IMG/VR virus record: IMGVR_UViG_3300029922_001574
Coordinates: 1-20,985 of that record
DNA: 20,985 nt
From: a virus
Strand: one strand, 5' to 3'
Below, one piece after another: positions 4,945-20,985 of this stretch (positions are counted from its first letter, which is position 1; each line of letters begins with the position of its first letter). The notes under the pieces are model-generated. The model saw only the letters and a program-made list of their open reading frames with translations, did not search any database and had not been told where the DNA came from. The position numbers and the translations under genes were made by a program.

Positions 4945-4959
4945 TTAGCCTCTTCACGG

Positions 4960-5166
4960 TTAGTCGAGAATCATGTCGTTCGGCGGCCAGCTTTCGCGTT
5001 TGTCTTCGGACAGAACCGATTGCACCACCGATTCATACTCCGCGTGATCCTTGAATGCGTCCACGGGCTCACCCGCAGCCACCTTGGCTCCATTGCGCGT
5101 CCGTTCGGACAGATAGAGCTTGTTCATCGCGGTGTTATCACCGCTGGCAATTTTCTTCGCAGTCAT
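4960..5166 (-). CDS. Small hypothetical protein, 68 aa
   Basis: ATG 5166 follows a strong GGGGAGAG ribosome site at good spacing, and the stop lies 15 bases before the start of the 948-aa gene, so the two are probably co-translated. The product is hydrophilic, begins MTAKKIASGDNT and ends in an acidic tail (DKRESWPPNDMILD). No Cys, no membrane segment. Not recognised; by position it could be a minor partner of the large downstream protein. Confidence 0.75.
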   Translation of the reverse strand: MTAKKIASGDNTAMNKLYLSERTRNGAKVAAGEPVDAFKDHAEYESVVQSVLSEDKRESWPPNDMILD

Positions 5167-5852: not shown

Positions 5853-6818
5853 TTACTTCCCTTGCTTCTCCCGCATCAAGCGCCGCATGTACTCACGGTC
5901 CTCTTTCGTCATCTGCGGTAGCGTCTGAGGTCTTGGCTCCGGTCGTTCCGGAGCCGGTGGCGGCGGCGGAAGTTCTTCCTCCTCGTCAACACTATCGTCA
6001 AGCCCTTCGATCTCCGGAATAGGTTCAAACTCATCCTCTACCGCTGGAGCCGGTGTGGTCGGCCCCAACGCTTCTTGGGGAGCCAGCTCAGGTACGCGCT
6101 CTTGCTCTTCCGGCGTTGCTGGCGTGTCCCGCGCCACCAGTTCGGGTGTTACCCCTTCCCGTTCCTCAAGACCGCGTAGGAGCTTGTTTCTGATCTCCTC
6201 ATCCCTATCCATCTGGGGTTGCTGCTGGCGCTGGCGCAAGTTCTTCTGGCGCAAGGTTAGGCCACGCGGCGGTTTCTTGTCCTTCTCTTCTTCCTTGATG
6301 CGCTTCATCTCACGGTCACGAAGAATTTTTACGATATTGTGTTGGACAGACGGTAAGATTCTTGCACAGGCAACGTACTCGTGTTTACACAAAATGTAGC
6401 CGTCACGGAGATCTAAACGTTCAGTGGGCGCAGTGAGCACAGGCCGTGGTTCACCTTCCAAAGCGTCCCTTTGGTGCAAATTCCATTGGCTGCCCCACCA
6501 TAAAGCAGCCGGACAGGTGCAGGCGATGGAAACATCTAAATCCTTAGCCTTGGTATCGTCGGTTACTTTAGACAGATCAAAGTGAATCTTTACATCATGC
6601 CCGTTGGGATCAGACGTCTCCAGATCGCATGTAACATTATATTGGAGAAATAACTCTTTTGGTGATGAGTTGGTTAGCTTTGGCACACACCCAGGGGCAT
6701 TTTTGTGTGAAAAGGAATTTGTAGATTTCGTCAGTTCTGGCAGTGAGATGGCCACCTTCATTCGACGAGACCGCAAATAGTCACTAACCGGAAATGTAAT
6801 CCAACCCTCTTTACGCAT
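5853..6818 (-). CDS. SWIM-type zinc-finger protein with acidic/Pro-rich tail
   Basis: The 321-aa product has a C-x-C ... C-x-H arrangement typical of SWIM zinc fingers: Cys100 and Cys102 in ACTCPAALWW, Cys144 and His146 in YILCKHEYVACARIL. SWIM fingers bind nucleic acid or protein. Versions with aromatic residues between the pairs occur in large-phage proteins of unknown role. Residues about 165-235 are charged and helical (RDREMKRIKEEEKDKK), and about 240-300 are Glu/Pro-rich and probably disordered, with a PPPPP run. ATG 6818 lies inside the end of the GIY-YIG gene (ATGCGTAA), so translation is probably coupled. The stop lies one base before the next start. Confidence 0.85.
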   Translation of the reverse strand: MRKEGWITFPVSDYLRSRRMKVAISLPELTKSTNSFSHKNAPGCVPKLTNSSPKELFLQYNVTCDLETSDPNGHDVKIHFDLSKVTDDTKAKDLDVSIACTCPAALWWGSQWNLHQRDALEGEPRPVLTAPTERLDLRDGYILCKHEYVACARILPSVQHNIVKILRDREMKRIKEEEKDKKPPRGLTLRQKNLRQRQQQPQMDRDEEIRNKLLRGLEEREGVTPELVARDTPATPEEQERVPELAPQEALGPTTPAPAVEDEFEPIPEIEGLDDSVDEEEELPPPPPAPERPEPRPQTLPQMTKEDREYMRRLMREKQGK

Positions 6819-7629
6819 AGTTTAAGGCTCTTTGCTTATTCCTCAACCGCGTCTTGTCGGCTAAAGCTGCTTTTCTCTCAGGAGTCCATGCGGCGCTGAT
6901 CTTCTTACGACATTCCTCAGAACATTTGTGCCCCTGTAGTCCCATAGAGATGCGCCCCCGATGCTCTGTTGAGAGTGGCTTTTTACGTTTTCCTTTCTGC
7001 CATTCGGACAGCTTAAGACAATGTGCCGGGGATTTACGCACACCCCGTAGAGCTTCCGCAACCTTCTGGCAGTGATCCGCTGTTAACTGTTTCCCTGTAT
7101 GCGCCCTGCTGATTTTGTCTTTATGCGCCTGCGTAAGGATTTTTCCAAGCTGCCCCTGACTAATTGCTAATGACCATTCTTTTGAATGCTTTTTCCCGAA
7201 GTTGCCGTTATCGGGGCCCCGTTTGATAGGCTTATCTTTTCGCGCTAGGGATAGTTGGCGGCGGTGTTCTACCGATAAGGTCTTCCCCTTATGGGCCTCA
7301 CTCATGTGCCTGCGTGCCGCTGGAGTCTTCTGGCCACCATCTCCGCCAAGCGTTAGGTTGTAACCGAACTCCTCAAGATGTGACCGATGCTGTTGAATGT
7401 GAAACTGCTCTAATGCATTTAACTCCAATTCGGTAGATGCATAAGCGAGTATTTCAATCAAAAAGGACTCTGGCCCATATTTACGAATCGCCCGATAGAA
7501 AAAGGGAAGTTCATTATTGCCTTGAATGGCATTGGAGAGGTGCTTACGCTCCCGTCGTCCGACCGATTGTGTCGTCTTGCCGATGTACACCTTGTCGTTC
7601 TTTAGATTGGAAAACCTGTAGATATACAC
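6811..7629 (-). CDS. GIY-YIG homing endonuclease with NUMOD3-type repeats
   Basis: The 272-aa product has an N-terminal GIY-YIG nuclease: YIY at 2-4, VYIG at 14-17, the Arg-rich RRERKH at 25-30, catalytic Glu74 in NALEQFHI and Asn91 in GYNLTLGGDGG. This family cuts DNA site-specifically to spread its own gene. Residues about 105-265 hold at least six NUMOD3-like DNA-binding motifs (for example HMSEAHKGKTLS, KISRAHTGKQLT, RISMGLQGHKCS), with many Lys and Arg. Start is GTG 7629 behind GAGGG. The stop overlaps the start of the SWIM gene by eight bases. It is free-standing: no intron splice features are visible around it. Confidence 0.93.
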   Translation of the reverse strand: MYIYRFSNLKNDKVYIGKTTQSVGRRERKHLSNAIQGNNELPFFYRAIRKYGPESFLIEILAYASTELELNALEQFHIQQHRSHLEEFGYNLTLGGDGGQKTPAARRHMSEAHKGKTLSVEHRRQLSLARKDKPIKRGPDNGNFGKKHSKEWSLAISQGQLGKILTQAHKDKISRAHTGKQLTADHCQKVAEALRGVRKSPAHCLKLSEWQKGKRKKPLSTEHRGRISMGLQGHKCSEECRKKISAAWTPERKAALADKTRLRNKQRALNYA

Positions 7630-8176: not shown

Positions 8177-8626
8177 TTAACGACACTTGGCGCAGCGGTA
8201 ATGCTCATCGTCCGGTTGGTTACTCGTATTCTCCGGAAGATTCATTTCGCGATAAATTCTAGCCAGCATCTCTGAGTCCTTTAGAATACACCGGTCGGCT
8301 GTCAAGATAAACTGGCGGTTCCCAATATCGTAACCAACTCGCCCACGCGGTGGCGTCCGATAATCCATATCGTTTGGAACCATACCCCAGCGCTGAAATT
8401 TCGGCCACATTTTCTCATGGTTAGATGGATACGTCTTATAACCCGACCATTCGTCCGCTTCACTGAGAGCGGCTGTATCAAAGATGAGTTCAGAACCGAC
8501 AACCCAGAAGATGCCAACCTCCGGCATACCAGCTTCTTTAGCCATCTGCTCCCTGGAGTGCTCGTTCCGCGATTGCATCTCGTCGAATAAGCCTTGTAGG
8601 CGTTGTGGGGGGTCAGTTTCACTCAT
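8177..8626 (-). CDS. Conserved hypothetical protein with IFWVVG and YDIGNRQFILTADRCIL motifs
   Basis: The 149-aa product starts at ATG 8626 behind GGAGGAG. Residues 37-130 contain GIFWVVGSELIFDTAALSEA, a Lys/Pro/His segment (YKTYPSNHEKMWPKFQ), PRGRVGYD and FILTADRCIL. I recall this combination in an uncharacterised bacterial family, which would make this a host-derived cargo gene in the phage. The tail ends CAKC, a single Cys pair that could join a metal site. No enzyme motif is evident. Confidence 0.8.
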   Translation of the reverse strand: MSETDPPQRLQGLFDEMQSRNEHSREQMAKEAGMPEVGIFWVVGSELIFDTAALSEADEWSGYKTYPSNHEKMWPKFQRWGMVPNDMDYRTPPRGRVGYDIGNRQFILTADRCILKDSEMLARIYREMNLPENTSNQPDDEHYRCAKCR

Positions 8627-8668
8627 TTTGTAGCGCTCCTCCAGGTGCTTCCAATATACCGTAAAACG

Positions 8669-9097
8669 CTACATCTGCTCCAAAACCGCGTCACAATTGG
8701 CGCGGACGCGCAGAAAGTACGTGGCTTCGATATCTTGCCGATTGGGTAGCTTCAGCTTCTTAGGCGACACCTTCAAGTATTTCGCTATTTTGTTGACCGC
8801 CTGGGTCCATTTACTGTTGGTCTGGCTTTCCACAAGGCGAATTGACTCCTCGATAGCCTTAGCCCGGTCGAAACGGCCCTTTGTTCCCGTTATCTCCAGC
8901 CATTTAGGGAGCGTTTGATCGATCAGGTTTTCCACTTCTTCTTCCCAACCGTCTACCGGAGCCATGAACCCATTCGCCTTCGCAATCTCCGCCTTGAAGT
9001 ATTCGCCAACCGCTCCCCACACAAACTCCCAGACGCGATCCTTGTAAACGTCGCGCGGGAATGCGAAGGCGAATTTTGGGATTGTGGCCGTGCTCAT
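8669..9097 (-). CDS. Hypothetical helical protein, 142 aa
   Basis: ATG 9097 overlaps the stop of the upstream 73-aa gene as ATGA, so the two are translationally coupled. The product is mostly helical and mixed-charge (RAKAIEESIRLVESQ, AVNKIAKYLKVSPKKLKLPN). The C-terminal half (about 95-142) has the spacing of a small DNA-binding helical bundle, but no definite helix-turn-helix can be claimed. Not recognised. Confidence 0.75.
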   Translation of the reverse strand: MSTATIPKFAFAFPRDVYKDRVWEFVWGAVGEYFKAEIAKANGFMAPVDGWEEEVENLIDQTLPKWLEITGTKGRFDRAKAIEESIRLVESQTNSKWTQAVNKIAKYLKVSPKKLKLPNRQDIEATYFLRVRANCDAVLEQM

Positions 9098-9315
9098 ACC
9101 TTCACTATACCAAGAACCGGCGCAATCACGACCGCGCGGCCAAACTCACTGCGCCACTGCCCGTTCCTATTGAAGAAGCGTAGATCGCCCGTCTCCGAAT
9201 CCAGGTGCAGGTGTAGGGAGGCTTTGGTTGCCTTAACGACGGTGCCGGGGTAAGGTTTCGGTTCTACGTAGCAGTAGGTTAAGGTAACCCGGTCGCCGGG
9301 ATGCAAGGGGCTCAT
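9094..9315 (-). CDS. Small SH3-like beta-barrel protein, 73 aa
   Basis: The product is a run of short beta strands: HPGDRVTLTYCYVEPKPYPG, TVVKATKASLHLHLD, RFFNRNGQWRSEF and VVIAPVLGIVKV. The opening 'PGDRV...PGTVVKA' resembles KOW/SH3-like barrels that bind nucleic acid or protein. Start ATG 9315 has only a weak upstream purine stretch. It is coupled to the next gene by an ATGA overlap. Role unknown. Confidence 0.75.
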   Translation of the reverse strand: MSPLHPGDRVTLTYCYVEPKPYPGTVVKATKASLHLHLDSETGDLRFFNRNGQWRSEFGRAVVIAPVLGIVKV

Positions 9316-9374
9316 ACTCTAATCTACCGGGTGGGTAGCTGGAATGTTGATTCAGGAATGGGTTTATTTTGCGT

Positions 9375-10010
9375 CTATTTGTTAAGTTCGGTTCGAACAA
9401 ACACATTGCGGCCTTGTTTCTTTATTCGCTGGATCTCACCAGCGTTCGTCATTTGAGCCAAGGCGGTCCGCAGGACGCCAAGCCGTCCTAACACGTCATA
9501 CCGTTTGCGCAAGACCGTTTGAATATCACGCTCCAACATTGGACCGGTCAGCAGCAACCGTATCAGACGTTTTCTTGTGTCCACTTCCGCCTGATACTCC
9601 CGGTGCCGGATCGCTTCCTCCGCTTTCAGTTGTTCCATCCATGCAACATGGCGTTTGCGTCTCTCCTCCAACGCCTGCTGAAACTGTAACCAGGATTCCG
9701 ACTGGGGGAAGTCAAGTCCTTTAGCCTGTTGTGCCAGAAAGCTAAGCCACCCTTCTTGGCCGCCCACATGGGTGTTGTCCCATAGGCCGTCAACAAACAG
9801 CAGATTGTTGATCTGATCAGATCGACTTGGGTCCTGAACGGTAACGCTTGTGCCACCGCCGCGTCCCCACATACCCGGTGACAAGGTGAAGGTTGTCAAC
9901 AGCGTATCACTAGGGGGTGTGATATCTACCGCACCGCCAGTTTCATACTCGTAACTACCCTGTACCCACCCAGCCGGGGTCAAATGATGGTACCAATATT
10001 CGTCTCTCAT
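9375..10010 (-). CDS. Hypothetical protein with a C-terminal winged-helix-like domain, 211 aa
   Basis: ATG 10010 follows AAGGAG, preceded at once by a perfect 7-bp hairpin. Residues 1-85 are aromatic- and Gly-rich and beta-like (DEYWYHHLTPAGWVQGSYEY, GMWGRGGGTSVTV). Residues 95-145 form a long charged helix. Residues about 145-211 fit a winged helix: LIRLLLTGPMLERDIQTVLR, then LRTALAQMTNAGEIQRI and the wing GRNVFVRTEL. This suggests DNA binding or autoregulation. Family not recognised. Confidence 0.78.
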   Translation of the reverse strand: MRDEYWYHHLTPAGWVQGSYEYETGGAVDITPPSDTLLTTFTLSPGMWGRGGGTSVTVQDPSRSDQINNLLFVDGLWDNTHVGGQEGWLSFLAQQAKGLDFPQSESWLQFQQALEERRKRHVAWMEQLKAEEAIRHREYQAEVDTRKRLIRLLLTGPMLERDIQTVLRKRYDVLGRLGVLRTALAQMTNAGEIQRIKKQGRNVFVRTELNK

Positions 10011-10025
10011 GCAATGAACTCCTTC

Positions 10026-10043
10026 GGAACCCGGTTGGGTTCC
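10026..10043 (-). promoter_or_regulatory. Perfect hairpin next to the ribosome site of the 211-aa gene
   Basis: GGAACCC and GGGTTCC pair over 7 bp around a 4-base loop. On the minus strand the stem ends two bases before AAGGAG of the 211-aa gene, in a position to affect translation or bind a repressor. No U tract follows on either strand, so a terminator is unlikely. Confidence 0.45.
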
Positions 10044-10123
10044 TAGTTAGGGAGTGGCGGTTGGGGCGGGAAGTTCTCTAGGAAAAGTCTGGTAGCTGGG
10101 GCCGGAGAGATTCCGGGAGCCGG

Positions 10124-10516
10124 TTGCACTTCGTTAGCATGAAAGCTACAGATGAAAGAGCGTACGCGATTGAGCTAGGCGTCAGCGGCCTTGGCGGTCG
10201 GCTTTGCTGCCCTTCATGCCTTGGGGATAACCTACATCAATATCGGGTAGAAGTATTCGAGCGGAAGGAGGACAGCGCCACAGGCCGTCACGTTGCCGTC
10301 ACAAGAAACGCCATCGTCGCCGACGATGACCTTACAGATAACCCAAGTGATAGGCGGCAAGGTTGCTGCGTCTACCTATGGTGTGAAACATGCCCAGCGT
10401 TAGCGGTTCTCAAGATTGATCAACGCAAAGGCGTAACATCCTTTGAGCTAACACCTCATATGAAACGACCGAATTCCCGTTTTGAAGAACCGACGTTTCA
10501 CACCAAAGAGTTCTGA
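10124..10516 (+). CDS. Zinc-ribbon protein, 130 aa
   Basis: Two Cys pairs, C29-x-x-C32 (CCPSCLGD) and C87-x-x-C90 (WCETC), frame conserved-looking segments YRVEVFERKED, DNPSDRRQG and KIDQRKGVTSFEL. I recall this arrangement (CxxC, a 'vFxRxED' strand, NPSxRR, WCExC, QxKG) in small zinc-ribbon proteins of bacteria and their phages; biochemical function is unknown. TTG 10124 sits four bases after GGGAG, whereas ATG 10139 has no ribosome site, so I prefer TTG. It is one of the few plus-strand genes, with its own terminator just downstream, which suggests an accessory gene. Confidence 0.82.
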   Translation: MHFVSMKATDERAYAIELGVSGLGGRLCCPSCLGDNLHQYRVEVFERKEDSATGRHVAVTRNAIVADDDLTDNPSDRRQGCCVYLWCETCPALAVLKIDQRKGVTSFELTPHMKRPNSRFEEPTFHTKEF

Positions 10517-10528
10517 ATGCTTGTAAAA

Positions 10529-10562
10529 CGAATGGAGCCCCCATTGCTGAGGGCTCCATTCG
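10529..10562. terminator. Strong hairpin, probable bidirectional terminator
   Basis: CGAATGGAGCCC pairs perfectly with GGGCTCCATTCG over 12 bp around a 10-base loop, 13 bases after the zinc-ribbon gene's stop. On the minus strand the stem is followed by TTTTAC; on the plus strand by GCGTCTTG. It fits best as a terminator for minus-strand transcription arriving from 10684 and may also stop the plus-strand gene. Confidence 0.75.
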
Positions 10563-10618
10563 GCGTCTTGTGACTTAGGACCGGGGCGGCCCGGTTATGG
10601 TTTGTGCGCTTCAAATAG

Positions 10619-10659
10619 CTTCAGAGGCGATTGACGGACCATAAACCGTCATACTGAAG
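10619..10659. repeat. Nested inverted repeat
   Basis: An outer stem CTTCAG/CTGAAG (10619-10624, 10654-10659) encloses an inner stem TGACGG/CCGTCA (10632-10637, 10646-10651) with an 8-base loop. It lies just past the stop of the frameshifted TM gene. There is no T tract. It could be an mRNA 3'-end structure or a protein-binding site. Confidence 0.4.
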
Positions 10660-10683
10660 GGCGCGGTAGTCGGATCTACCCGC

Positions 10684-10898
10684 CTAGCTCTTCCGGTCCA
10701 TCAACTTGCCGATCTCTAAATCCATGGCACCAAGCTTCTGAACGATAATCTTTATATCGGTACGGATTTCACGGATGTCCTCCCGAATCTCCTTGGATGT
10801 TTCACGCACCCCCTGATGCCAAGGAGACTAACAACCAAGCTGGCAATGACGGTAAGGCAAGGCAAGCCAACGGCGAAATATAATTGCGTGTCGGTCAT
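10684..10898 (-). pseudogene. One-TM coiled-coil protein gene split at a G5 run
   Basis: From ATG 10898, 30 codons encode a hydrophobic helix (LYFAVGLPCLTVIASLVVSL) up to IRG. The minus-strand run of five G's (10809-10813) then breaks the frame. Stepping back one base gives 41 further codons, beginning VRETSKEIREDIREIRTD and ending KLMDRKS at TAG 10684-10686: a clear amphipathic coiled coil. Without the shift the tail is Arg/Pro-rich and stops near 10752. A sixth G would restore one frame. Either a homopolymer sequencing error or -1 slippage on AGG GGG is possible. An upstream in-frame ATG at 10997 overlaps the endonuclease 3' end and would add 33 residues. I recall similar short TM-plus-coiled-coil proteins in soil bacteria. 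Confidence 0.7.
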
Positions 10899-10986
10899 GT
10901 GATCCAGTATATCGCCTACGCCGCCAGCGGCACCGCAGCCGCCCGTCGCTTGATCCAGGTTTCCGACGTGCGCCAGTAGCGGCGCT

Positions 10987-12621
10987 TCACCGCTCATACA
11001 CCCAGCGCCGGTACCCGGCGTCGTAGAGGCATCTGGCACCGGCGCGGTACATGTTCTGGTGTTCGGTGAGCGAAGGGTCGTATTGATCGCCTAACAGTTG
11101 CGCCAGCCGGGAATGGCGGCAGCGGCGCTTGTTCAATACGCGATGTTTATAAAACCACTGGTAGGAGGGTGTGACATCCTTATCCTTGCTAAAGCCTAAC
11201 TCCTTGTAGAGAGTACCTGTGGAGTATTGGTTATTGGAGAAGGTCACAATCCTTAGAGCAGGAAGTGTTCTGAGTGCGTTTTTCAGTAGCTTACTCGCGC
11301 CGCCAACCACCGTAGTGTTGATTGGAAATGCCAGCCGCGTTAAGCTCAATTCCCGTTTCTCATGTCCGGCAAAGGTAATGACGCCAACCAACTCTTCGCC
11401 CGCAAACAAGCCATAACAAAACTTGGCGGTTGGCGTCGATCCCTGAAGATGATTGGCGTCTAAAAACGAACTAGCATCCTCACGGCTAATCTCCCGGAAG
11501 GTGGTGGAACGCGCCGCTATACGTCGCTCATGGCGGCCCAGCCGGGAAGCGATGATTGACTTCCATATCTCCCGCTTAACCGGGTGGACCCATTCATGTT
11601 CGTCAAGCTGCAAAAGCCGAATACCCTTCTCCTGGCAGATTAGGAATTTGTCCCGGTGCTTCATTCTGGAACCTAGATCGTCGTTCTCAGCGACGGAATG
11701 CCAGTAGGTGCCGTTCAACTCCAAGGCAAGCTGGGCGGTTGGAATCCAAATATCCAATTCCTTTGGACGGATGACATCGCGGGCGTTTGACACATAAGCT
11801 ACGCCAAGGGACGCCAGGAAGATCTCAATCTCCTTATGGGGAGTGGAGTGGGCGGCAGGGCAGTATGGACACCCACAGTCTTTAAAATGCACCTCCGGCG
11901 TCTGCGAAAATTCATGGCCATTTTGACACCGCATCCGGATAGGTGTGTAGTAATCAACGTACTCGCTCAAGTATTCAGTGGTAAGCGTTTGCTCCTCACT
12001 AATTCGGCCCTTAAACCATGCGTCGTCTTTGAGCATATACTGGCGGTGGTTTTCGCGGCGGCATTTAGGGCAGGTGCTTCCTTCCAGGTGGTAGGCTGGC
12101 TTCTGCCGAAAAACCCCATGCCGTGGACAAACAATGTCCATGTCAGTATAAACGGTAATGAACGTTTCAGCGACGTAGGTATACTTGCCTGGATGCTTCA
12201 ACTCTGCCCGCCGCAAGAAAACGTCAAACGTTCGCACTTGACCTTTACACACCGGGCACCCGCGTTTGTGGAAGATGTGGTCATAAGGCGACATCGGAAA
12301 CGGCCCATGTTCCCGGCAGACGATCTCTACCGGCGTCTTATGGTCAACATAAACCACCTTAGAGTACAGGTACTCAGTGCCATAGATGTCTGCTGCCTTT
12401 TTGATGAATGAAGCTGTGTTATCAAACCGGTACAGTGGGCAGCCACCGTCTTTGGATGATAGATGATTGTTTGGAATCTGCCAGTACGAAACTCCATGCT
12501 CCTTGCAGATAATCTCTACCTTCGTTTTCGCGTCTACATAGAGCGATTTAGAGTAGTCGCAAACAGCGCCATGTACGAGCTTGGCTTGAGCCACAAACTC
12601 CTGGGTCGTATTGCGTTTCAT
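10987..12621 (-). CDS. Vsr-like (EDxHD-type) homing endonuclease with zinc-ribbon array
   Basis: The 544-aa product begins with four repeats of the DUF723-like type (about 1-66, 67-127, 128-189, 190-256), each with a 'Y-Y-S-K' type opening, C-x-x-H-G and a closing C-P-x-C; repeat 1 ends CPLY, having lost its last Cys. A Vsr-like nuclease follows (about 260-362): Glu264/266, Asp290 in KELDIWIP, Glu301 and His308 in ELNGTYWHS, and DEHEW at 340-344. Phage EDxHD endonucleases such as I-Bth0305I share this nuclease type. Residues 370-544 form a C-terminal domain (CYGLFAGEELVGVITF, RLAF, TVVGGASKLLKNAL, FSNNQYSTGTLYKELGF). The last about 43 codons are nearly identical in DNA to the plus-strand paralogue. 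It lies just downstream of the capsid terminator with its own candidate promoter. Confidence 0.93.
   Translation of the reverse strand: MKRNTTQEFVAQAKLVHGAVCDYSKSLYVDAKTKVEIICKEHGVSYWQIPNNHLSSKDGGCPLYRFDNTASFIKKAADIYGTEYLYSKVVYVDHKTPVEIVCREHGPFPMSPYDHIFHKRGCPVCKGQVRTFDVFLRRAELKHPGKYTYVAETFITVYTDMDIVCPRHGVFRQKPAYHLEGSTCPKCRRENHRQYMLKDDAWFKGRISEEQTLTTEYLSEYVDYYTPIRMRCQNGHEFSQTPEVHFKDCGCPYCPAAHSTPHKEIEIFLASLGVAYVSNARDVIRPKELDIWIPTAQLALELNGTYWHSVAENDDLGSRMKHRDKFLICQEKGIRLLQLDEHEWVHPVKREIWKSIIASRLGRHERRIAARSTTFREISREDASSFLDANHLQGSTPTAKFCYGLFAGEELVGVITFAGHEKRELSLTRLAFPINTTVVGGASKLLKNALRTLPALRIVTFSNNQYSTGTLYKELGFSKDKDVTPSYQWFYKHRVLNKRRCRHSRLAQLLGDQYDPSLTEHQNMYRAGARCLYDAGYRRWVYER
10994..11121 (-). 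repeat. 128-bp inverted repeat, copy 1 (3' end of endonuclease)
   Basis: The minus-strand sequence here matches plus-strand 15885-16012 at 126 of 128 positions by direct comparison, without gaps. The two differences are C/T in TACGA(C/T)CCTT and G/A in TACC(G/A)GCG. It encodes the C-terminal residues from CRHSRLAQLLG to RRWVYE. Identity drops sharply at both ends. Confidence 0.95.
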
Positions 12622-12627
12622 GACGCT

Positions 12628-12656
12628 TATATTCTACCGCACTAAAACTCGCCGAA
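12628..12656 (-). promoter_or_regulatory. Candidate promoter of the minus-strand Vsr-like endonuclease
   Basis: On the minus strand, TTGTTC is followed after 17 bases by TAGAAT (5 of 6 to the -10 consensus); the -35 is weak (3 of 6). The -10 ends nine bases before ATG 12621, so the transcript would be almost leaderless, and no clear ribosome site is present. It lies just beyond the capsid terminator, so the gene could be expressed independently. Confidence 0.45.
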
Positions 12657-12665
12657 CAAATAGAA

Positions 12666-12689
12666 AAAGGCCCCATTTCTGGGGCCTTT
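12666..12689 (-). terminator. Intrinsic terminator of the capsid genes
   Basis: AAAGGCCCC and GGGGCCTTT form a perfect 9-bp stem with a 6-base loop, followed on the minus strand by TTCTATTT, giving a TTTTT tract at the stem end. It starts 26 bases after the capsid stop and would separate capsid transcription from the downstream endonuclease. Confidence 0.88.
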
Positions 12690-12714
12690 GTCATCACTTA
12701 GTCCGCCTTATTGT

Positions 12715-13650
12715 TTAGATTTGCGGAGCGTCTACTGTTAGGCCCGTACGACCCGTTACTATCAACCGTTGTACGGCGGACGGGTTGAAAATAGCTATTC
12801 CGAGTATCTCGAAGATGCTAAACCCGATTTGCCTAAGGTCCGGCCTATCGGCACTCATGACGGTCAAGGGAACACGTTCGGGTATCACACCCAAAAACTC
12901 GTTCTCCGCCAGGATGTAGATGTTACCGTAGTTCACCTTACGTGACTGGAGAATGGTTGCTCCCCAGAGGTAACCCATGACGCCTGTTTTTAACAAAGCG
13001 CGTTGGGTTTCACGGTCGATGTTCGAATCGGTCCACTTACGGAAGTCGGCATAATCGCGAGGGTTCACGAAAATGTAGGCTACCGATAAGTCGTGGCGCT
13101 CGATACCGGCAAAGCCGTCGGCAAGCGCATCGGTGGTGATTGGCGCGGCAATCGTCTGATCCACGTTCAACACGTAGTCAGTCGGTACCGCGTTAACAGC
13201 CGCATTGGCGACCGCATCTAGCAGCCCGAAGACCTTTTCATCTTCGGTTGCGCCGATTTCGGCCTTACCCAGGTTAAGCGCACGTTGGACAACGTCGAAA
13301 CGGCGCTCTTTAATCTGAGTGATGGGGATCATCGGCATTTCGGCGATTTCGAAAGTCGGCACCGTGAGACGGATGGGTTTAACCACCATCGCCGGAGCGA
13401 GACCTTCTTCACCAACCACAAAGGCCAACGTGAAGGATTGACCGGAAGCGTCAAATTCCTTGTCGTATATGGGCAAGGCTCCATCGGCTAACGTCTCTAC
13501 CATCAATGCTTTACGAGCGATGCTCATATAGTCACGACGGCGGCGAAGCGACGGTCCAAGCGAAGCGGCCAGCTTTTGACGGCCAGCGGCGGATTTCAGC
13601 AAAGAGCCCAATAGGTTCTGTTGCTGCTGAGTTCTGGAAAGATTTGCCAT
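12715..13650 (-). CDS. Major capsid protein, HK97-fold type
   Basis: The 311-aa product starts at ATG 13650 behind CAGGAGA. The first about 40 residues are basic and helical (LGPSLRRRRDYMSIARKAL), like an N-arm. The middle has a mixed alpha/beta stretch with FDVVQRALNLGKAEIGATED and a long helix LLDAVANAA. The C-terminal half follows the HK97 capsid pattern: YIFVNPRDYADFRKW, then GYLWGATILQSRKVNYGNIY, an EFLGVIPERVPLTVM strand, a charged DRPDLRQIGFSIFEILGIAIFNPSAV strand-turn unit and VQRLIV. HK97-fold proteins form the icosahedral shell. The strong ribosome site, strong terminator and upstream decoration-like gene agree with high expression. No protease-cleaved delta domain is obvious within this gene. 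Confidence 0.85.
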   Translation of the reverse strand: MANLSRTQQQQNLLGSLLKSAAGRQKLAASLGPSLRRRRDYMSIARKALMVETLADGALPIYDKEFDASGQSFTLAFVVGEEGLAPAMVVKPIRLTVPTFEIAEMPMIPITQIKERRFDVVQRALNLGKAEIGATEDEKVFGLLDAVANAAVNAVPTDYVLNVDQTIAAPITTDALADGFAGIERHDLSVAYIFVNPRDYADFRKWTDSNIDRETQRALLKTGVMGYLWGATILQSRKVNYGNIYILAENEFLGVIPERVPLTVMSADRPDLRQIGFSIFEILGIAIFNPSAVQRLIVTGRTGLTVDAPQI

Positions 13651-13696
13651 AGTAAGTTCTCCTGTTTCCTTTTCTCTTGATCTTTTGCCTCTGGGC

Positions 13697-14188
13697 TTAG
13701 ATCAGGGCAGCAATACCTAGCCACGGGAAGGTGGCCGTTGGGACACACATGATGATGCCGATAGGGTTTTTAAATCCACTACCCGGCTGATCCGAAGTGA
13801 CAAGACCCTTGAAAGCCCCGGTGCCACAATAGGCTGGTGCGCCTATGATGTACGGAGCCGTGGGGGTCACATTATATGCCTGGGCGTCCACTAAGATCGT
13901 GGGCATCGCACGCACAACCGAAATCTTGCCTGAGCCAGATGGTCCGATTGCGCCCGCGAATTCGCCGGGGCCGTTGATGAGAAATCCATATGGCTGCGCA
14001 AGTGCGGAGTCACATGGGATGATGACAGTGCCGCGTGACACGGTTGCAGATGCGAAAAGGCTAACTACTTTGCCTCCAAGGTAACCTGCATTGAGTAACG
14101 TAACGTTGTCGGTTCCGGGATCGCCGGTCAGAATAACATCGGGGCCATGGGCACCGTCATTCTGTCCGTAATAGACGAGTTTCAACAT
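13697..14188 (-). CDS. Putative capsid decoration/stabilisation protein
   Basis: The 163-aa product starts at ATG 14188 behind a perfect AGGAGG. It is rich in Gly, Ala, Pro, Thr and Val and has beta-type alternation throughout (KVVSLFASATVSRGTVIIPCD, YGFLINGPGEFAG, GKISVVRAMPTILVD, GIIMCVP). No signal peptide. Its position one gene upstream of the capsid gene on the same transcript (46-base gap) is where many phages keep the head-decoration protein. The role is inferred from position and composition; the family is not recognised. Confidence 0.85.
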   Translation of the reverse strand: MLKLVYYGQNDGAHGPDVILTGDPGTDNVTLLNAGYLGGKVVSLFASATVSRGTVIIPCDSALAQPYGFLINGPGEFAGAIGPSGSGKISVVRAMPTILVDAQAYNVTPTAPYIIGAPAYCGTGAFKGLVTSDQPGSGFKNPIGIIMCVPTATFPWLGIAALI

Positions 14189-14329
14189 GAAACTAATCCT
14201 CCTGAGTAAAGTTCATGTACTTTCCCAGTGCCACCGCCTGGAGAGGAAGTTAAGCACTTTAGGTCAAGTACCGGAGAACGTATTTAGCGTCCACAACTAG
14301 GGGAACCGTAGTTGAAAAGTTGCGTTTAC

Positions 14330-14358
14330 TTTAAAAAGGGCCACCTTCTATGCGTCAA
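14330..14358 (-). promoter_or_regulatory. Candidate promoter for the decoration/capsid genes
   Basis: On the minus strand TTGACG (5 of 6 to the -35 consensus; plus-strand 14353-14358) is followed after exactly 17 bases by TTTAAA (4 of 6; 14330-14335). Transcription would begin near 14323 and give a leader of about 135 nt before ATG 14188. It points toward the capsid genes and overlaps back-to-back with the endonuclease promoter. Confidence 0.55.
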
Positions 14359-14363
14359 CACTT

Positions 14364-14372
14364 TGGTATAAT
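14364..14372 (+). promoter_or_regulatory. Extended -10 promoter of the plus-strand endonuclease
   Basis: TGGTATAAT is an exact TGn-TATAAT extended -10 element. No -35 match lies at 16-18 bases upstream. Nine bases separate it from ATG 14382, so the start site would fall within or just before AGGTAGAG, giving a nearly leaderless mRNA. Confidence 0.55.
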
Positions 14373-14381
14373 TAGGTAGAG

Positions 14382-16025
14382 ATGATCAGTCCATTAACAA
14401 CACAGGAGTTTTGCGCAAAAGCGCTAGCGGTGCATGGGCTAGGACGGTATGACTACTCCAAGTCCGTTTACGTAAGAAGCCAAGTCAAGGTGTGTATTTT
14501 ATGCTTGGAGCCGGAGCATGGTGAGTTTTGGCAAACCCCCAACAATCACCTTAACGGAAAGGGTTGCCCCGAGTGCGCTGGCTTAAAGAGGCTCACCCAA
14601 GAAAGCTTCTTACGCCGCGCTGTTGCCGTTCACGCTAATCGGTACAATTACTCGCAAACCGCTTACCAAAGCATTAAAGCCGACGTATGTATCGTTTGCC
14701 CGGTTCATGGACCGTTCTTGCAAGCGCCCGATAATCATCTAAGAAATCACGGATGTCCGGCGTGTGTGGGCTTGGATCGGCTTACCCAAGAAGAGTTTTT
14801 GGTGAAGGCTCATAGGGCTCATAACGGTAGGTACGATTACTCCAAGGCGGTGGTGACGAGTAATACAACTAAGCTCTGCATTGTTTGTCCGATACATGGG
14901 GAATTTTGGCAGGCTCCTAAGAGTCACCTTAAAGGTTATGGATGCGCTGACTGTGCTGGTAATAAGCAACGCGACCCCGCCTTATTCGCTGGTATGGCGG
15001 TGGCAGTTCACGGAGAGAAGTACGACTATTCGCAGGCGGTGTACACAAATACGGATACTAAACTAGTGATCATCTGTCGCCAGCATGGTCCTTTCGAGCA
15101 AACACCTTATAATCACGTCAATCTAGGTAAGGGCTGCGCCTCTTGTTCCAATGTATATTCGAAGCCCCACAAAGAAGTCGAGTCTTACCTGACTTCTCTG
15201 GGGGTGGTCTACTTGAGCAATAGTCGCTCCATCATCCCTCCAAAGGAGTTGGATATTTATCTTCCGGCGCACAACCTTGCCGTTGAGTTTAATGGTACAT
15301 TTTGGCATTCCATTGATGAGTTTGACTCTCCGGGCGATAAGCTGAAACACCGCAACAAATTCCTTTCGTGTCAAACGAAGGGCATCCGGTTGCTTCAGAT
15401 AAGCGAACATGAATGGAGTGACCCGCGAACTCAAAGCATCTGGCAATCTGTTCTTGCTTCTAAATTGGGTAAGCATATAATTAAAGTATCAGCCAGGAAA
15501 ACAACGTTTCGGGCTATAACGCGCTACGAAGCCAACACTTTCTTAGCTACCAATCACCTCCAAGGAGGGACTCCCTATACCCGTTTTTGTTTCGGGTTGT
15601 TCCTGAAAGAGACCCTAATCGGGGTAATAACCTTTGCCTATCACGAAAAACAGTACTTGAATCTTTCACGTTTAGCCTTCCCACTCAACACAACCGTCGT
15701 CGGTGGCGCTCAAAAGCTTTTCAAGAACGCCCTCAAGGCGCTACCGGCCTTACCAGTGATTACGTTCAGCCACAACCAATACTCTGGCGGGGCGGTCTAT
15801 GAAACGTTGGGCTTCAGGAAAGACGGTGATCTATCAGCCTCCTACCAGTGGGTATTCCAAGGTGAAATTTTGAATAAGCGTTTGTGCCGCCATTCCCGGC
15901 TGGCGCAACTGTTAGGCGATCAATACGATCCTTCGCTCACCGAACACCAGAACATGTACCGCGCCGGTGCCAGATGCCTCTACGACGCCGGGTACCAGCG
16001 CTGGGTGTATGAATTGCATTTCTAA
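14382..16025 (+). CDS. Vsr-like (EDxHD-type) homing endonuclease with four zinc-ribbon repeats
   Basis: The 547-aa product has four well-kept DUF723-like repeats (about 5-67, 70-130, 133-194, 198-257), each ending in C-x-x-C and containing HG(P/E)F-x-Q-(A/T)P. The Vsr-like nuclease spans about 260-365: KELDIYLP (Asp291), VEFNGTFWHS (His309), GIRLLQISEHEW. The last carries Ser where the paralogues have Asp. The C-terminal domain (370-547) matches the paralogues, and its last 43 codons are nearly identical in DNA to the minus-strand copy. It is the only endonuclease here on the plus strand, inserted against the direction of the head genes between the two-TM gene and the decoration gene. The ribosome site AGGTAGAG overlaps the likely transcription start. 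Confidence 0.93.
   Translation: MISPLTTQEFCAKALAVHGLGRYDYSKSVYVRSQVKVCILCLEPEHGEFWQTPNNHLNGKGCPECAGLKRLTQESFLRRAVAVHANRYNYSQTAYQSIKADVCIVCPVHGPFLQAPDNHLRNHGCPACVGLDRLTQEEFLVKAHRAHNGRYDYSKAVVTSNTTKLCIVCPIHGEFWQAPKSHLKGYGCADCAGNKQRDPALFAGMAVAVHGEKYDYSQAVYTNTDTKLVIICRQHGPFEQTPYNHVNLGKGCASCSNVYSKPHKEVESYLTSLGVVYLSNSRSIIPPKELDIYLPAHNLAVEFNGTFWHSIDEFDSPGDKLKHRNKFLSCQTKGIRLLQISEHEWSDPRTQSIWQSVLASKLGKHIIKVSARKTTFRAITRYEANTFLATNHLQGGTPYTRFCFGLFLKETLIGVITFAYHEKQYLNLSRLAFPLNTTVVGGAQKLFKNALKALPALPVITFSHNQYSGGAVYETLGFRKDGDLSASYQWVFQGEILNKRLCRHSRLAQLLGDQYDPSLTEHQNMYRAGARCLYDAGYQRWVYELHF
15885..16012 (+). repeat. 128-bp inverted repeat, copy 2 (3' end of plus-strand endonuclease)
   Basis: Matches minus-strand 11121-10994 at 126 of 128 positions. 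After 16012 the copies diverge at once (GAATTGCATTTC here against GAGCGGTGAAGC), and before 15885 the identity falls to that expected of distant paralogues. The copies are about 4.9 kb apart in inverted orientation and bracket the capsid and decoration genes. Confidence 0.95.
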
Positions 16026-16097
16026 GACGAGTACTCACTAAGCAGGTCACCCGTGCTTAGCTTTCGCCGGATGAATACCCGCTTGAAGTGTCGCTAC

Positions 16098-16283
16098 TTA
16101 GCAGCCGTGTTTAGCTTTACGGGCCTGCCGTAACGCTACCGCCCAAGACGTGCGGCTACCCAGGCCACCCACAGCCAAGGCAAACCCGTATGCGATAGCC
16201 AACGATTCCAGGCTCATGTTCAATGAGACGCCGATAAAGGCAGCGCCGGTGAGCGCCGCGATAAAGCTACCCGTGAGCCACAT
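16098..16283 (-). CDS. Small two-TM membrane protein, 61 aa
   Basis: I choose ATG 16283, ten bases after TTGGAG, over an upstream GTG at 16304 that lacks a ribosome site. Two hydrophobic helices are predicted (about 3-20 and 26-44: LTGSFIAALTGAAFIGV and LAIAYGFALAVGGLG) with a short loop and a basic tail ending KAKHGC. The size and topology resemble small holins, but no endolysin gene is near, so this stays a membrane protein of unknown role. The start overlaps the end of the 214-aa gene by 17 bases. Confidence 0.7.
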   Translation of the reverse strand: MWLTGSFIAALTGAAFIGVSLNMSLESLAIAYGFALAVGGLGSRTSWAVALRQARKAKHGC

Positions 16284-16911
16284 AATCGTACATCTCCAAG
16301 TCACTCTTCACAACTTGGAAAGAGAAGCGTTCTGGCGGTAGGGATACATGGTCACTCGCCATATCGGACCAGGTATGGTAGGCACTGTTACCCACAGTTG
16401 AATTCAGGTAGAGAAGAAACTGATCGGAGCAGCAGCGGATGGGTGGCATCTGCCGGAAGCTTAAACGCAAGCCAACCGCGCATTCCAGATCAACGCCCGT
16501 ATGGTCTACTTCCTTATCTTCCAGGAGCGTCACGAAGCTGGCGCGGCCCGCGTGCGGCCATACGTCGTAGCGCAGTAACGGCCTTAGCGCTTGCCGGGTG
16601 CCGAACGTCGTTTCACATTGCCGTATCCATTGCAGGATGGAATCGCCCCAGTTCCATTGATACTGAAGATCGCGGTAGCGGGCAACCAGATTCAAGGCAA
16701 GATCCATCTGGCGGCGCTGGTGATCGACGCGCAGCATAGGAACGCCTAAGGGTGCGGCTTCCACCATCTCTTCCTGATCTATAATGACGCTGGCCGTATC
16801 GAAGAGTCCGGTGGCGCTTCCCGGCGTGGATGCAGCGGCTAGAAAGAGCGGTGGCAACTCGTGGGTATCGTTTCCGGCTAGTTCGACGAAGGTACGGGCT
16901 CCAATGATCAT
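16267..16911 (-). CDS. Hypothetical protein, 214 aa (structural candidate)
   Basis: ATG 16911 follows GGGAG at somewhat long spacing. The product is a soluble mixed alpha/beta protein with many aromatic and Arg residues (ARYRDLQYQWNWGDSILQWI, LRPLLRYDVWPHAG) and an FVTLLEDKEVDHTGVDL segment. It has no Cys motif beyond an adjacent CC at about 159-160. It lies between the GNAT-like and two-TM genes in the head region and could be a neck or connector component, but I do not recognise it. Confidence 0.8.
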   Translation of the reverse strand: MIIGARTFVELAGNDTHELPPLFLAAASTPGSATGLFDTASVIIDQEEMVEAAPLGVPMLRVDHQRRQMDLALNLVARYRDLQYQWNWGDSILQWIRQCETTFGTRQALRPLLRYDVWPHAGRASFVTLLEDKEVDHTGVDLECAVGLRLSFRQMPPIRCCSDQFLLYLNSTVGNSAYHTWSDMASDHVSLPPERFSFQVVKSDLEMYDYVAHG

Positions 16912-16953
16912 GGTAAGGATTCACTCCCTACTAAAGGATTGGGAAGCTTGGCA

Positions 16954-17316
16954 TCAGGTTGGCTTATACATCGAGAAGCCAAGCCCCGGTGTATCCTGCC
17001 AAGCGTAACCACGCCTGTGAAGGAACCCGATCAGCCGCTCCTCCAGAATAGATTCAACGAACACGATGCGCTGGTGCTCAGCGGCGATCCGCTCCATCAC
17101 ATCCACCAAGCGCGTGAATGCGCCGGTACCCTGCGGGTAGGCACCGACGGACGCGATGTCAAGTGTTTTACACAAGATGTGCCCACAGACGTGATTGGCT
17201 TTGCGCACATAGATTTTCAGGTACGCGGCATCTGTGTGGAAATGCAGCCACGCGCTGCGTTTTGGTGAGTTTACGAACTCTTCAATCGCATCCTCGGGAT
17301 TCCATTGCATCGCCAT
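16954..17316 (-). CDS. GNAT-like acetyltransferase-fold protein, 120 aa
   Basis: The C-terminal two thirds fit a short GNAT fold: strand AYLKIYVRKANHVCGHILC (31-49), strand LDIASVGAY, then PQGTGAFTRLVDVMERIA (61-78), where the Q-x-x-G-x-(G/A) acetyl-CoA loop is expected, strand RIVFVESI (83-90) and helix LEERLIGFLHRRGY (91-104). GNAT enzymes move acetyl groups from acetyl-CoA to amines. The acceptor here is unknown, and the loop reads QGTGAF, slightly off consensus. ATG 17316 follows the previous stop directly (TGAATG), so the two genes are coupled. Confidence 0.82.
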   Translation of the reverse strand: MAMQWNPEDAIEEFVNSPKRSAWLHFHTDAAYLKIYVRKANHVCGHILCKTLDIASVGAYPQGTGAFTRLVDVMERIAAEHQRIVFVESILEERLIGFLHRRGYAWQDTPGLGFSMYKPT

Positions 17317-17502
17317 TCAAGCCTCTACTTTGATTGTGCCAACGTGAAACTGTTCACAATGAAGGCAGGGGTAAACAACGAACTTCTTTGTTGGGTATTT
17401 CTCGGCCATGAAAACCAACGCATCCTCTGCCTGCCGCCGATTTGCGTAACGAACTTTCTCACTACAGCCCGGTCGCCATTTCTTGCGCTTTAACTTTTGC
17501 AC
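17317..17502 (-). CDS. Small zinc-ribbon-like protein, 61 aa
   Basis: The product has Cys13, a basic N-terminus (KLKRKKWRPG), a helix NRRQAEDALVFMAEKY and the closing YPCLHCEQFHVG with Cys46, Cys49 and His53. This CxxC-x3-H ending with an upstream Cys and a K-x-x-Y segment is a pattern I know from small phage and actinobacterial proteins of unknown role, probably binding one zinc. The start is GTG 17502 with only a G-rich upstream stretch, so it may be poorly or conditionally translated. It is coupled to the GNAT-like gene. Confidence 0.72.
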   Translation of the reverse strand: MQKLKRKKWRPGCSEKVRYANRRQAEDALVFMAEKYPTKKFVVYPCLHCEQFHVGTIKVEA

Positions 17503-19622: not shown

Positions 19623-20985
19623 TTAGCAGCGGCGAAACAACCATCGCTGATAACCCGCGTCATACAAACAGCGGCCACCATTCCGGTACATATTCTGATG
19701 TTCAGTTTCGTTTGGGTTATATCCATTACCCAGGGCCACAGCTAATCGGCTATGACGGAACATCCGCTTGTTGTGGACACGATTCTTGAAAAACCATTGG
19801 TAAGAAGGAGGGACGGCTGCGTCACGCTGAAATCCCAGTATTGGGTACACCGACCCAGAACTGTACCTGTTGTTTGAGAAGGTGACAATATCCTTGCCGG
19901 GAGGAAGTAATGAAACTGCGTTGACGAAGAGCTTCCGCGCTCCGCCGACAACGGTAAGATTGGCCTTGAAAGCCAATCGACTTAGATTTATACTGCGCTT
20001 CTCATGTTCAGCAAATACAATCACACCGACCAAGCCCCCTTGAAAGAAAAGGCCATAACGCCACCGATGAAGCGTCGTACCTTGAAGGTGATTGGAGCAC
20101 AGGAAGGCGTCGGCCTCACTCGCGGATATCTCCTTGAAAGCGGTCTTGCGGGCAGCCACTTTTAGTTGTAATCCAGCCTTTGACGCAATGATGGATTCCC
20201 AAATAGCTTTAGTCCCGGCGTTAGTCCACTCATGCTCGTCGATTTGAAGTAGCGATATGCCCCTATCCCGGCAAAGTTGGTACTTCAGCAAGTGGCTTTT
20301 CTTTTCAGCCGGTGGCTCCTTGCCCGTGAGAGCATGCCAGTAGGTGCCATTCAATTCTATGGCCAATGCTTTGCTGGGAATGTAGACGTCTAACTCTTTA
20401 GGAGGTATTACGGATCTCGTGTTTGACTCAAACTCTATCCCCAACGATTGAACAAACGCCTCCACGCTCTTATGAGGTCTTGTGTAGTGATCACAACAAG
20501 AAGGGCATCCCCTACCGCTGATGTGCGAGGATGCTTCTTGGAAGAATGAGCCGTGCCGCTTACAAACGATCTCCACCTTTTCCTTAGCTCCGGCGTAAAC
20601 CGCCCTTGAGTAATCGTACCGATCTCCGTGGGTGACGTTGGCTCCGTGGATGTATTGATCAAGCTCCTTGCGTTGCGTGTCAGAGCGGCTAAGCTTCCCA
20701 CACGCCGGACAACCGATTTGAGCGAGTAGATGGTGTTCAGCCGCAACCGAGAACGGCCCATGCTGTAAACAAGTAATATGAACCTTGCCACGATAAGTTC
20801 TGTAAACCGTCGCCGTGTAGTCGTACTTATCTCCGTGAATCTCTTTCGCTTTATGGACAAAGCCCACGGTATTCATGCGCTGAGAAGCGCTTCTCTTAAT
20901 AATTCCACACTGAGGACACCCATTCCCATCCCAATGGTACTCAACGACTTGCCAGAACGATCCATGATCGACACAAATAATCTCG
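19623..20985 (-). CDS. Vsr-like homing endonuclease, 5' end beyond the window
   Basis: The frame stays open upstream of Met 20876 to the window edge and encodes another zinc-ribbon repeat there (HGSFWQ ... GNGCPQCG), so Met 20876 is internal and the gene is partial. Two complete repeats follow (HGDKYDY ... GCPACGK and HGDRYDY ... GCPSCCD), then the Vsr-like nuclease (KELDVYIP, ALAIELNGTYWHAL, GISLLQIDEHEW) and the C-terminal domain (YGLFFQGGLVGVIVF, TVVGGARKLFVNAV, FSNNRYSSGSVYPILGF). The ending TEHQNMYRNGGRCLYDAGYQ matches its two paralogues in protein but not closely in DNA. It lies upstream of the acidic head gene on the same strand. Confidence 0.92.
   Translation of the reverse strand, partial: EIICVDHGSFWQVVEYHWDGNGCPQCGIIKRSASQRMNTVGFVHKAKEIHGDKYDYTATVYRTYRGKVHITCLQHGPFSVAAEHHLLAQIGCPACGKLSRSDTQRKELDQYIHGANVTHGDRYDYSRAVYAGAKEKVEIVCKRHGSFFQEASSHISGRGCPSCCDHYTRPHKSVEAFVQSLGIEFESNTRSVIPPKELDVYIPSKALAIELNGTYWHALTGKEPPAEKKSHLLKYQLCRDRGISLLQIDEHEWTNAGTKAIWESIIASKAGLQLKVAARKTAFKEISASEADAFLCSNHLQGTTLHRWRYGLFFQGGLVGVIVFAEHEKRSINLSRLAFKANLTVVGGARKLFVNAVSLLPPGKDIVTFSNNRYSSGSVYPILGFQRDAAVPPSYQWFFKNRVHNKRMFRHSRLAVALGNGYNPNETEHQNMYRNGGRCLYDAGYQRWLFRRC

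Follow-up and report, generated by a model that had tools for sequence, protein, structure and literature searches.

The window discussed here, IMG/VR record IMGVR_UViG_3300029922_001574, is a virus contig and was analysed over its full length of 20,985 bases. It carries two predicted homing endonuclease genes (HEGs), E1 and E2, which are diverged paralogs with a near-identical inverted tract of 128 bp at their 3' ends. E1 (10987 to 12621, minus strand) lies directly downstream of the major capsid gene and encodes a Hef/phrog_559-like protein of 544 amino acids. E2 (14382 to 16025, plus strand) encodes a paralog of 547 amino acids and is located in the opposite orientation on the other side of a capsid gene pair. 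A third paralog of 417 amino acids, E3 (19623 to 20876, minus strand), appears not to have been converted, its tract region being 60% identical in DNA to both E1 and E2.

The tract and its silent sites

The tract copy in E2 spans positions 15885 to 16012 on the plus strand, comprises codons 502 to 543 plus two bases, and encodes CRHSRLAQLLGDQYDPSLTEHQNMYRAGARCLYDAGYQRWVY(E). The copy in E1 runs in reverse orientation on the minus strand, from 11121 to 10994. When recomputed, 126 of the 128 bases are identical, and the whole record holds just these two occurrences. Both copies lie in frame at the 3' ends of genes that face away from each other. The tract stands in place of a homologous tail, with the register kept and nothing inserted; the sequences downstream of E1 and E2 are unrelated to each other. 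Its edges are abrupt, as the preceding base (G/C) and the following base (A/G) both mismatch; blocks of 30 bases show 12 to 22 matches upstream of the tract and 3 to 13 beyond it. The near-identical inverted tract and the abrupt step in identity given in a preliminary description of this DNA are thus reproduced with exact coordinates. The longest exact runs common to both copies measure 44, 67, and 15 bases. One internal difference (GAT/GAC) is silent and encodes Asp. The other (CAG/CGG) yields Gln in E2 and Arg in E1, and the Arg looks derived, because Gln is present in E2 and in every aligned relative.

Upstream of the tract, E1 and E2 have a DNA identity of 54% and agree at 247 of 490 aligned residues. 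In most windows of this region the silent sites are saturated or nearly so, with synonymous divergence (dS) saturated or undefined, while dS inside the tract is about 0.036. At identical degenerate residues, the same codon is used in 38 of 39 cases inside the tract and in 100 of 242 outside (Fisher p = 2.3e-12), and the maximal silent-identity segment was equalled in none of 20,000 permutations. The count of silent differences inside and outside the tract, which had been suggested as a check, therefore gives the pattern that conversion predicts.

Conservation along the protein is highest in the tail, where E521, G529, D535, and G537 are near-invariant. Relatives with a similar tail are E3 and genes in three other contigs (L082, L083, and L084), and they share only about 20 to 55% of codons with E1/E2 at identical residues. 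Specifically, the matching codons number 6–7 of 27–28 in E3, 12–14 of 33–34 in L082, 16–17 of 30–31 in L083, and 8 of 23–24 in L084. Because these relatives keep the tail residues with different codons, the comparison indicates that neither protein-level nor DNA-level selection can account for the identity step. The preliminary description had preferred gene conversion or template repair to slow divergence and regarded selection on protein alone as insufficient; the silent sites and the freely varying codons of the relatives support it on both points.

The preliminary description had also proposed looking for copies in which nothing but the tract is shared. Such a search returned no copy outside the window, whether in IMG/VR, among the species genomes of GTDB, or in phage records, the last of which gave no DNA match to the tract. 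Peptide-pattern scans of IMG/VR yielded four loci with a related tail only, the best being 87% identical in protein and about 79% in DNA. A search for related loci with E1 alone as the query found nothing.

Domain architecture and genomic setting

E1, E2, and E3 match phage HEG families (phrog_559 and phrog_3339, the latter annotated 'homing endonuclease') over most of their length. E1 matches phrog_559 with an E-value of 6e-109 and phrog_3339 with 3e-78, and E2 matches phrog_559 with 1e-114. These full-length profile matches assign all three genes to the free-standing Hef-like homing endonuclease family. The AlphaFold2 model of E2, with a mean predicted local distance difference test (pLDDT) score of 90.5, consists of repeated N-terminal units, a nuclease domain, and a C-terminal domain. 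The N-terminal units correspond to the Pfam treble-clef families DUF4379/DUF723 in most family members. The nuclease domain (residues ~256 to 365) has a profile match to PDB entry 3r3p (E 3e-8), which was deposited as 'Mobile intron protein' and which we take to be the homing endonuclease I-Bth0305I. Foldseek also aligns this domain with Vsr (1cw0/1vsr; E about 2e-3), in agreement with a Vsr/EDxHD fold.

The top Foldseek match of the E2 model is phage Mu Mom (8bv8, E 7e-7), found by its C-terminal domain. With VIA-align, residues 370 to 547 of the model superpose on Mom with Z 13.1 and a root-mean-square deviation of 2.5 over 131 residues, a result tied with other GNAT enzymes. The Pfam Mom score of 20–22 bits is below the gathering cut-off of 27.1; therefore, the domain is labelled only as Mom-like. 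According to the model, the genes are fusions of a zinc ribbon, a Vsr/I-Bth0305I-like nuclease, and a phage Mu Mom-like domain. In the E2 model, residues 502 to 543, which the tract encodes, form the final helices and strands of this domain. All three proteins end in this putatively DNA-modifying GNAT domain (residues 370 to 547 in E2) behind the Vsr-like nuclease. Such a fusion may be a homing enzyme that carries its own modification domain, or it may unite restriction and modification in one protein.

Two genes are situated between E1 and E2, both on the minus strand. The major capsid gene (12715 to 13650; phrog_2522, E 1e-47) is 85% identical in amino acids to gp334 of Tunturi_5, and the conserved capsid-adjacent gene (13697 to 14188) is 63% identical to gp333 of the same phage. 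Tunturiibacter phage Tunturi_5 (308 kb) is the nearest sequenced relative and contains no member of the E1–E3 family. In Tunturi_5, the capsid gene, gp333, a scaffold-like gene, and gp335 are consecutive and separated by short gaps, so that only short gaps exist at the positions of E1 and E2. The window has about 4.6 kb of DNA from the capsid gene to the homolog of gp335, taken up by E1 and small accessory genes, and about 3.4 kb from the homolog of gp333 to the scaffold-like gene, taken up by E2 and others. Both HEGs are thus inserted at sites that are empty in the relative. The two insertions in the head operon, 8177 to 12621 and 14382 to 17502, each consist of one HEG and several small accessory genes, mostly without database matches. 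E3 lies upstream of the scaffold-like gene, at a site occupied by HEGs in L083 and L084.

Between E1 and E2, the genes are ordered as in Tunturi_5 and other contigs, which rules out an inversion of the capsid block; it follows that copying of the tail left no net inversion. Transfer of the capsid pair as a HEG island was likewise rejected, since its DNA identity to Tunturi_5 is 70%, like that of another conserved gene, at 991 to 1722 (70.7%). HEG islands as defined in PMC10448857 have more than 10 kb of high-identity DNA between HEGs, common to diverged phages, and the E1–E2 block is under 2 kb.

A second HEG class is found in the same operon. This GIY-YIG/NUMOD3 homing endonuclease gene (6811 to 7629, minus strand; Pfam GIY-YIG 34 bits, NUMOD3 46 bits) is flanked by the homologs of gp335 and gp336. 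In L083, a GIY-YIG gene occupies a different place in the head operon, at 4410 to 5054. In Campylobacter phage F367 (123864 to 128610; L232, L243), two tandem HEGs of the E1–E3 family are located directly downstream of the major capsid gene, like E1. In a Jedunavirus (L159), a HEG open reading frame from about 39716 follows the capsid gene at 38707 to 39741.

Tracts among paralogs in other phages

The recurrence of such tracts among members of the E1–E3 family, gathered from many records, was surveyed with blastn using strict penalties, which keep alignments from running into diverged sequence. Tract-only identity was defined as at least 60 bp at 93% or more, and matches in gene flanks (reading into a tandem neighbour), at record ends, or over whole genes were removed by hand. 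It was found in 15 of 432 paralog pairs within records and in 3 of 10,299 pairs between records. Several of the 15 are short pieces of repeated zinc units. 3'-terminal tracts occur in two further records, with 159 bp at 96.9% running past the stop codon in G020 (L211) and 72 bp at 97% in G021 (L219). In both, the partners are neighbouring shorter paralogs, and the G021 pair is also near-identical over its first 74 bp.

The pattern is clearest in the cultured Campylobacter phages F367 and vB_Cj_QDYZ, which hold 11 and 10 tail-holding copies, respectively (L236–L251). Among their tracts are two with 100% identity (158 and 86 bp), one of 135 bp at 99%, and a 3'-terminal one of 131 bp at 95%; elsewhere the genes are about 70% identical in DNA. 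Paralogous HEGs are awkward for short-read assembly, a caveat for these isolates, and in one study HEG variants called from whole-genome data could not be reproduced (PMC8540345). When full-length copies were put through a strict permutation test, the 2% level or better was reached by 17 of 185 pairs from within a genome (about 4 expected) and by 7 of 500 pairs from different genomes (10 expected). Judging from these alignments, conversion is common in some phages and not general. A different pattern is seen in the Jedunavirus HEG alleles L158, L159, and L160, whose 3' halves are about 92% identical in DNA while their 5' zinc-ribbon halves differ, a picture that would fit a swap of the DNA-binding part.

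Proposed gene conversion, its rivals, and known systems

The tract is best explained by recent ectopic gene conversion between two paralogous free-standing HEGs of one phage lineage, to which a probability of about 0.78 is given. We infer repair or recombination as the cause, a recent date, and a recombinase tolerant of short, imperfect homology. The event is dated as recent because only two differences are present in 128 bases. In the proposed course, a break or stalled end would arise in the 3' part of one HEG, and repair would copy about 130 bp from the other HEG, 4.8 kb away and inverted, without lastingly rearranging the DNA that separates the two genes. The last ~42 codons, encoding the helices and strands at the C-terminal end of the Mom-like domain, would be overwritten, and copying would stop where the homology of E1 and E2 ends. 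A phage recombinase that accepts short, imperfect homology may be involved, and phage recombination systems are known to tolerate it (PMC10448857). GC content favours neither gene as donor, and the tree of the gene bodies does not separate the branching of E1, E2, and L082, on which the direction of conversion depends.

Several observations weigh against this explanation. The body tree leaves the branching of E1, E2, E3, L082–L084, and L090 open, and the tails of relatives are too diverged to compare the ancestry of tract and flanks. All 17 significant pairs of the permutation test are confined to the window and the two Campylobacter phages; the HEG-rich record G034 contributes none from its 45 pairs. 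The window comes from an environmental virus contig for which reads are missing, and the third-position GC content of the tract (0.74–0.76) is above that of the E1 body (0.59; p 0.03) and the E2 body (0.53; p 0.01).

The raised GC content hints at a third donor. One or both tails might have come by recombination from a third HEG, of the same or a co-infecting phage, with no direct exchange between E1 and E2. With a record of only 20,985 bases, further paralogs of this phage would be unseen; nevertheless, this origin is unlikely, given that the database searches revealed no third copy of the tract and that two events would be required if both tails were imported. The missing reads bear on an assembly chimera, in which one true tail was replaced by the other during metagenome assembly. 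A copy made by assembly would be identical, but the two copies differ at two positions, and comparable tracts exist in phages sequenced from cultures, which makes this explanation highly improbable. Improbable, too, is a course in which an entire gene was recently duplicated and one copy then had everything but its tail replaced. Swaps of nuclease and DNA-binding parts are documented for HEGs (PMC10448857), and the capsid-adjacent Jedunavirus HEGs are alike in the 3' half and different in the 5' half. However, E1 and E2 have unrelated downstream sequences, different sites, and opposite orientations, so the duplication must have ended almost exactly at the stop codon, and this course is costlier than a conversion of 128 bp.

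A constraint at the DNA level, such as an RNA element, a recognition site, or an overlapping gene, would fit with the tract being the most conserved stretch of the protein tail. It is scarcely credible and was rejected by the codon comparison, as E3 on the same contig and the relatives L082–L084 retain the residues with different codons; moreover, no RNA element or tRNA was found in the window, which has no Rfam match. A more elaborate proposal is that the inverted repeats in the outward-facing tails turn the HEGs bracketing the capsid pair into a recombining unit, whose block flips or whose ends keep exchanging, with two HEGs of different targets coupled as a small collaborative homing cassette. 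This is very doubtful.

Ectopic conversion between E1 and E2 would represent a very clear instance of selfish nuclease genes evolving in concert within a single virus. According to the survey, members of the zinc ribbon, Vsr-like, and Mom-like family are mosaic in some HEG-rich, culturable phages, and recombination between HEG paralogs should therefore be measurable in Campylobacter Fletcherviruses. No paper describing the mosaic Campylobacter HEG paralogs was found in the open-access literature. Whole-gene phylogenies of such HEGs can mislead.

Among known systems, I-Bth0305I is related to the nuclease domain by sequence profile, yet only profile residues 282 to 356 align and the solved chain of 105 residues has no Mom-like domain. 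The Hef-like enzymes known from T4-like and Campylobacter phages include hef of phage U5 (PMC2988022) and Hef59 and Hef168 of NCTC 12673 (PMC8540345). They are likewise encoded by free-standing HEGs, and 'Hef-like homing endonuclease' is the annotation given to relatives of E2 in phages of Klebsiella and Pseudomonas. Mom domains fused to restriction-endonuclease-fold domains have been described in jumbo phages, with five momylating enzymes in PA5oct (PMC7824862). Five members of the E1–E3 family were found in PA5oct with the same domain combination, although that work reads the fusions as restriction-modification and not as homing.

The closest parallels are the phage HEGs for which recombination and domain swapping, as well as the bracketing of essential modules, have been published (Barth, Dunham and Seed 2023, PMC10448857). 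In those cases, as here, near-identical DNA segments are shared by otherwise diverged HEGs, and HEGs flank essential gene modules. They differ in that T5orf172 HEGs and repeats of the DNA-binding domain are involved, whereas in the window the 3'-terminal 128 bp of Vsr/Mom HEGs, encoding part of the Mom-like domain, are shared in inverted orientation. As HEG-to-HEG recombination has already been published, E1 and E2 are a new example and not a new kind, namely a clean case of a known process, seen in another HEG family and in the part of the gene that encodes the C-terminus.

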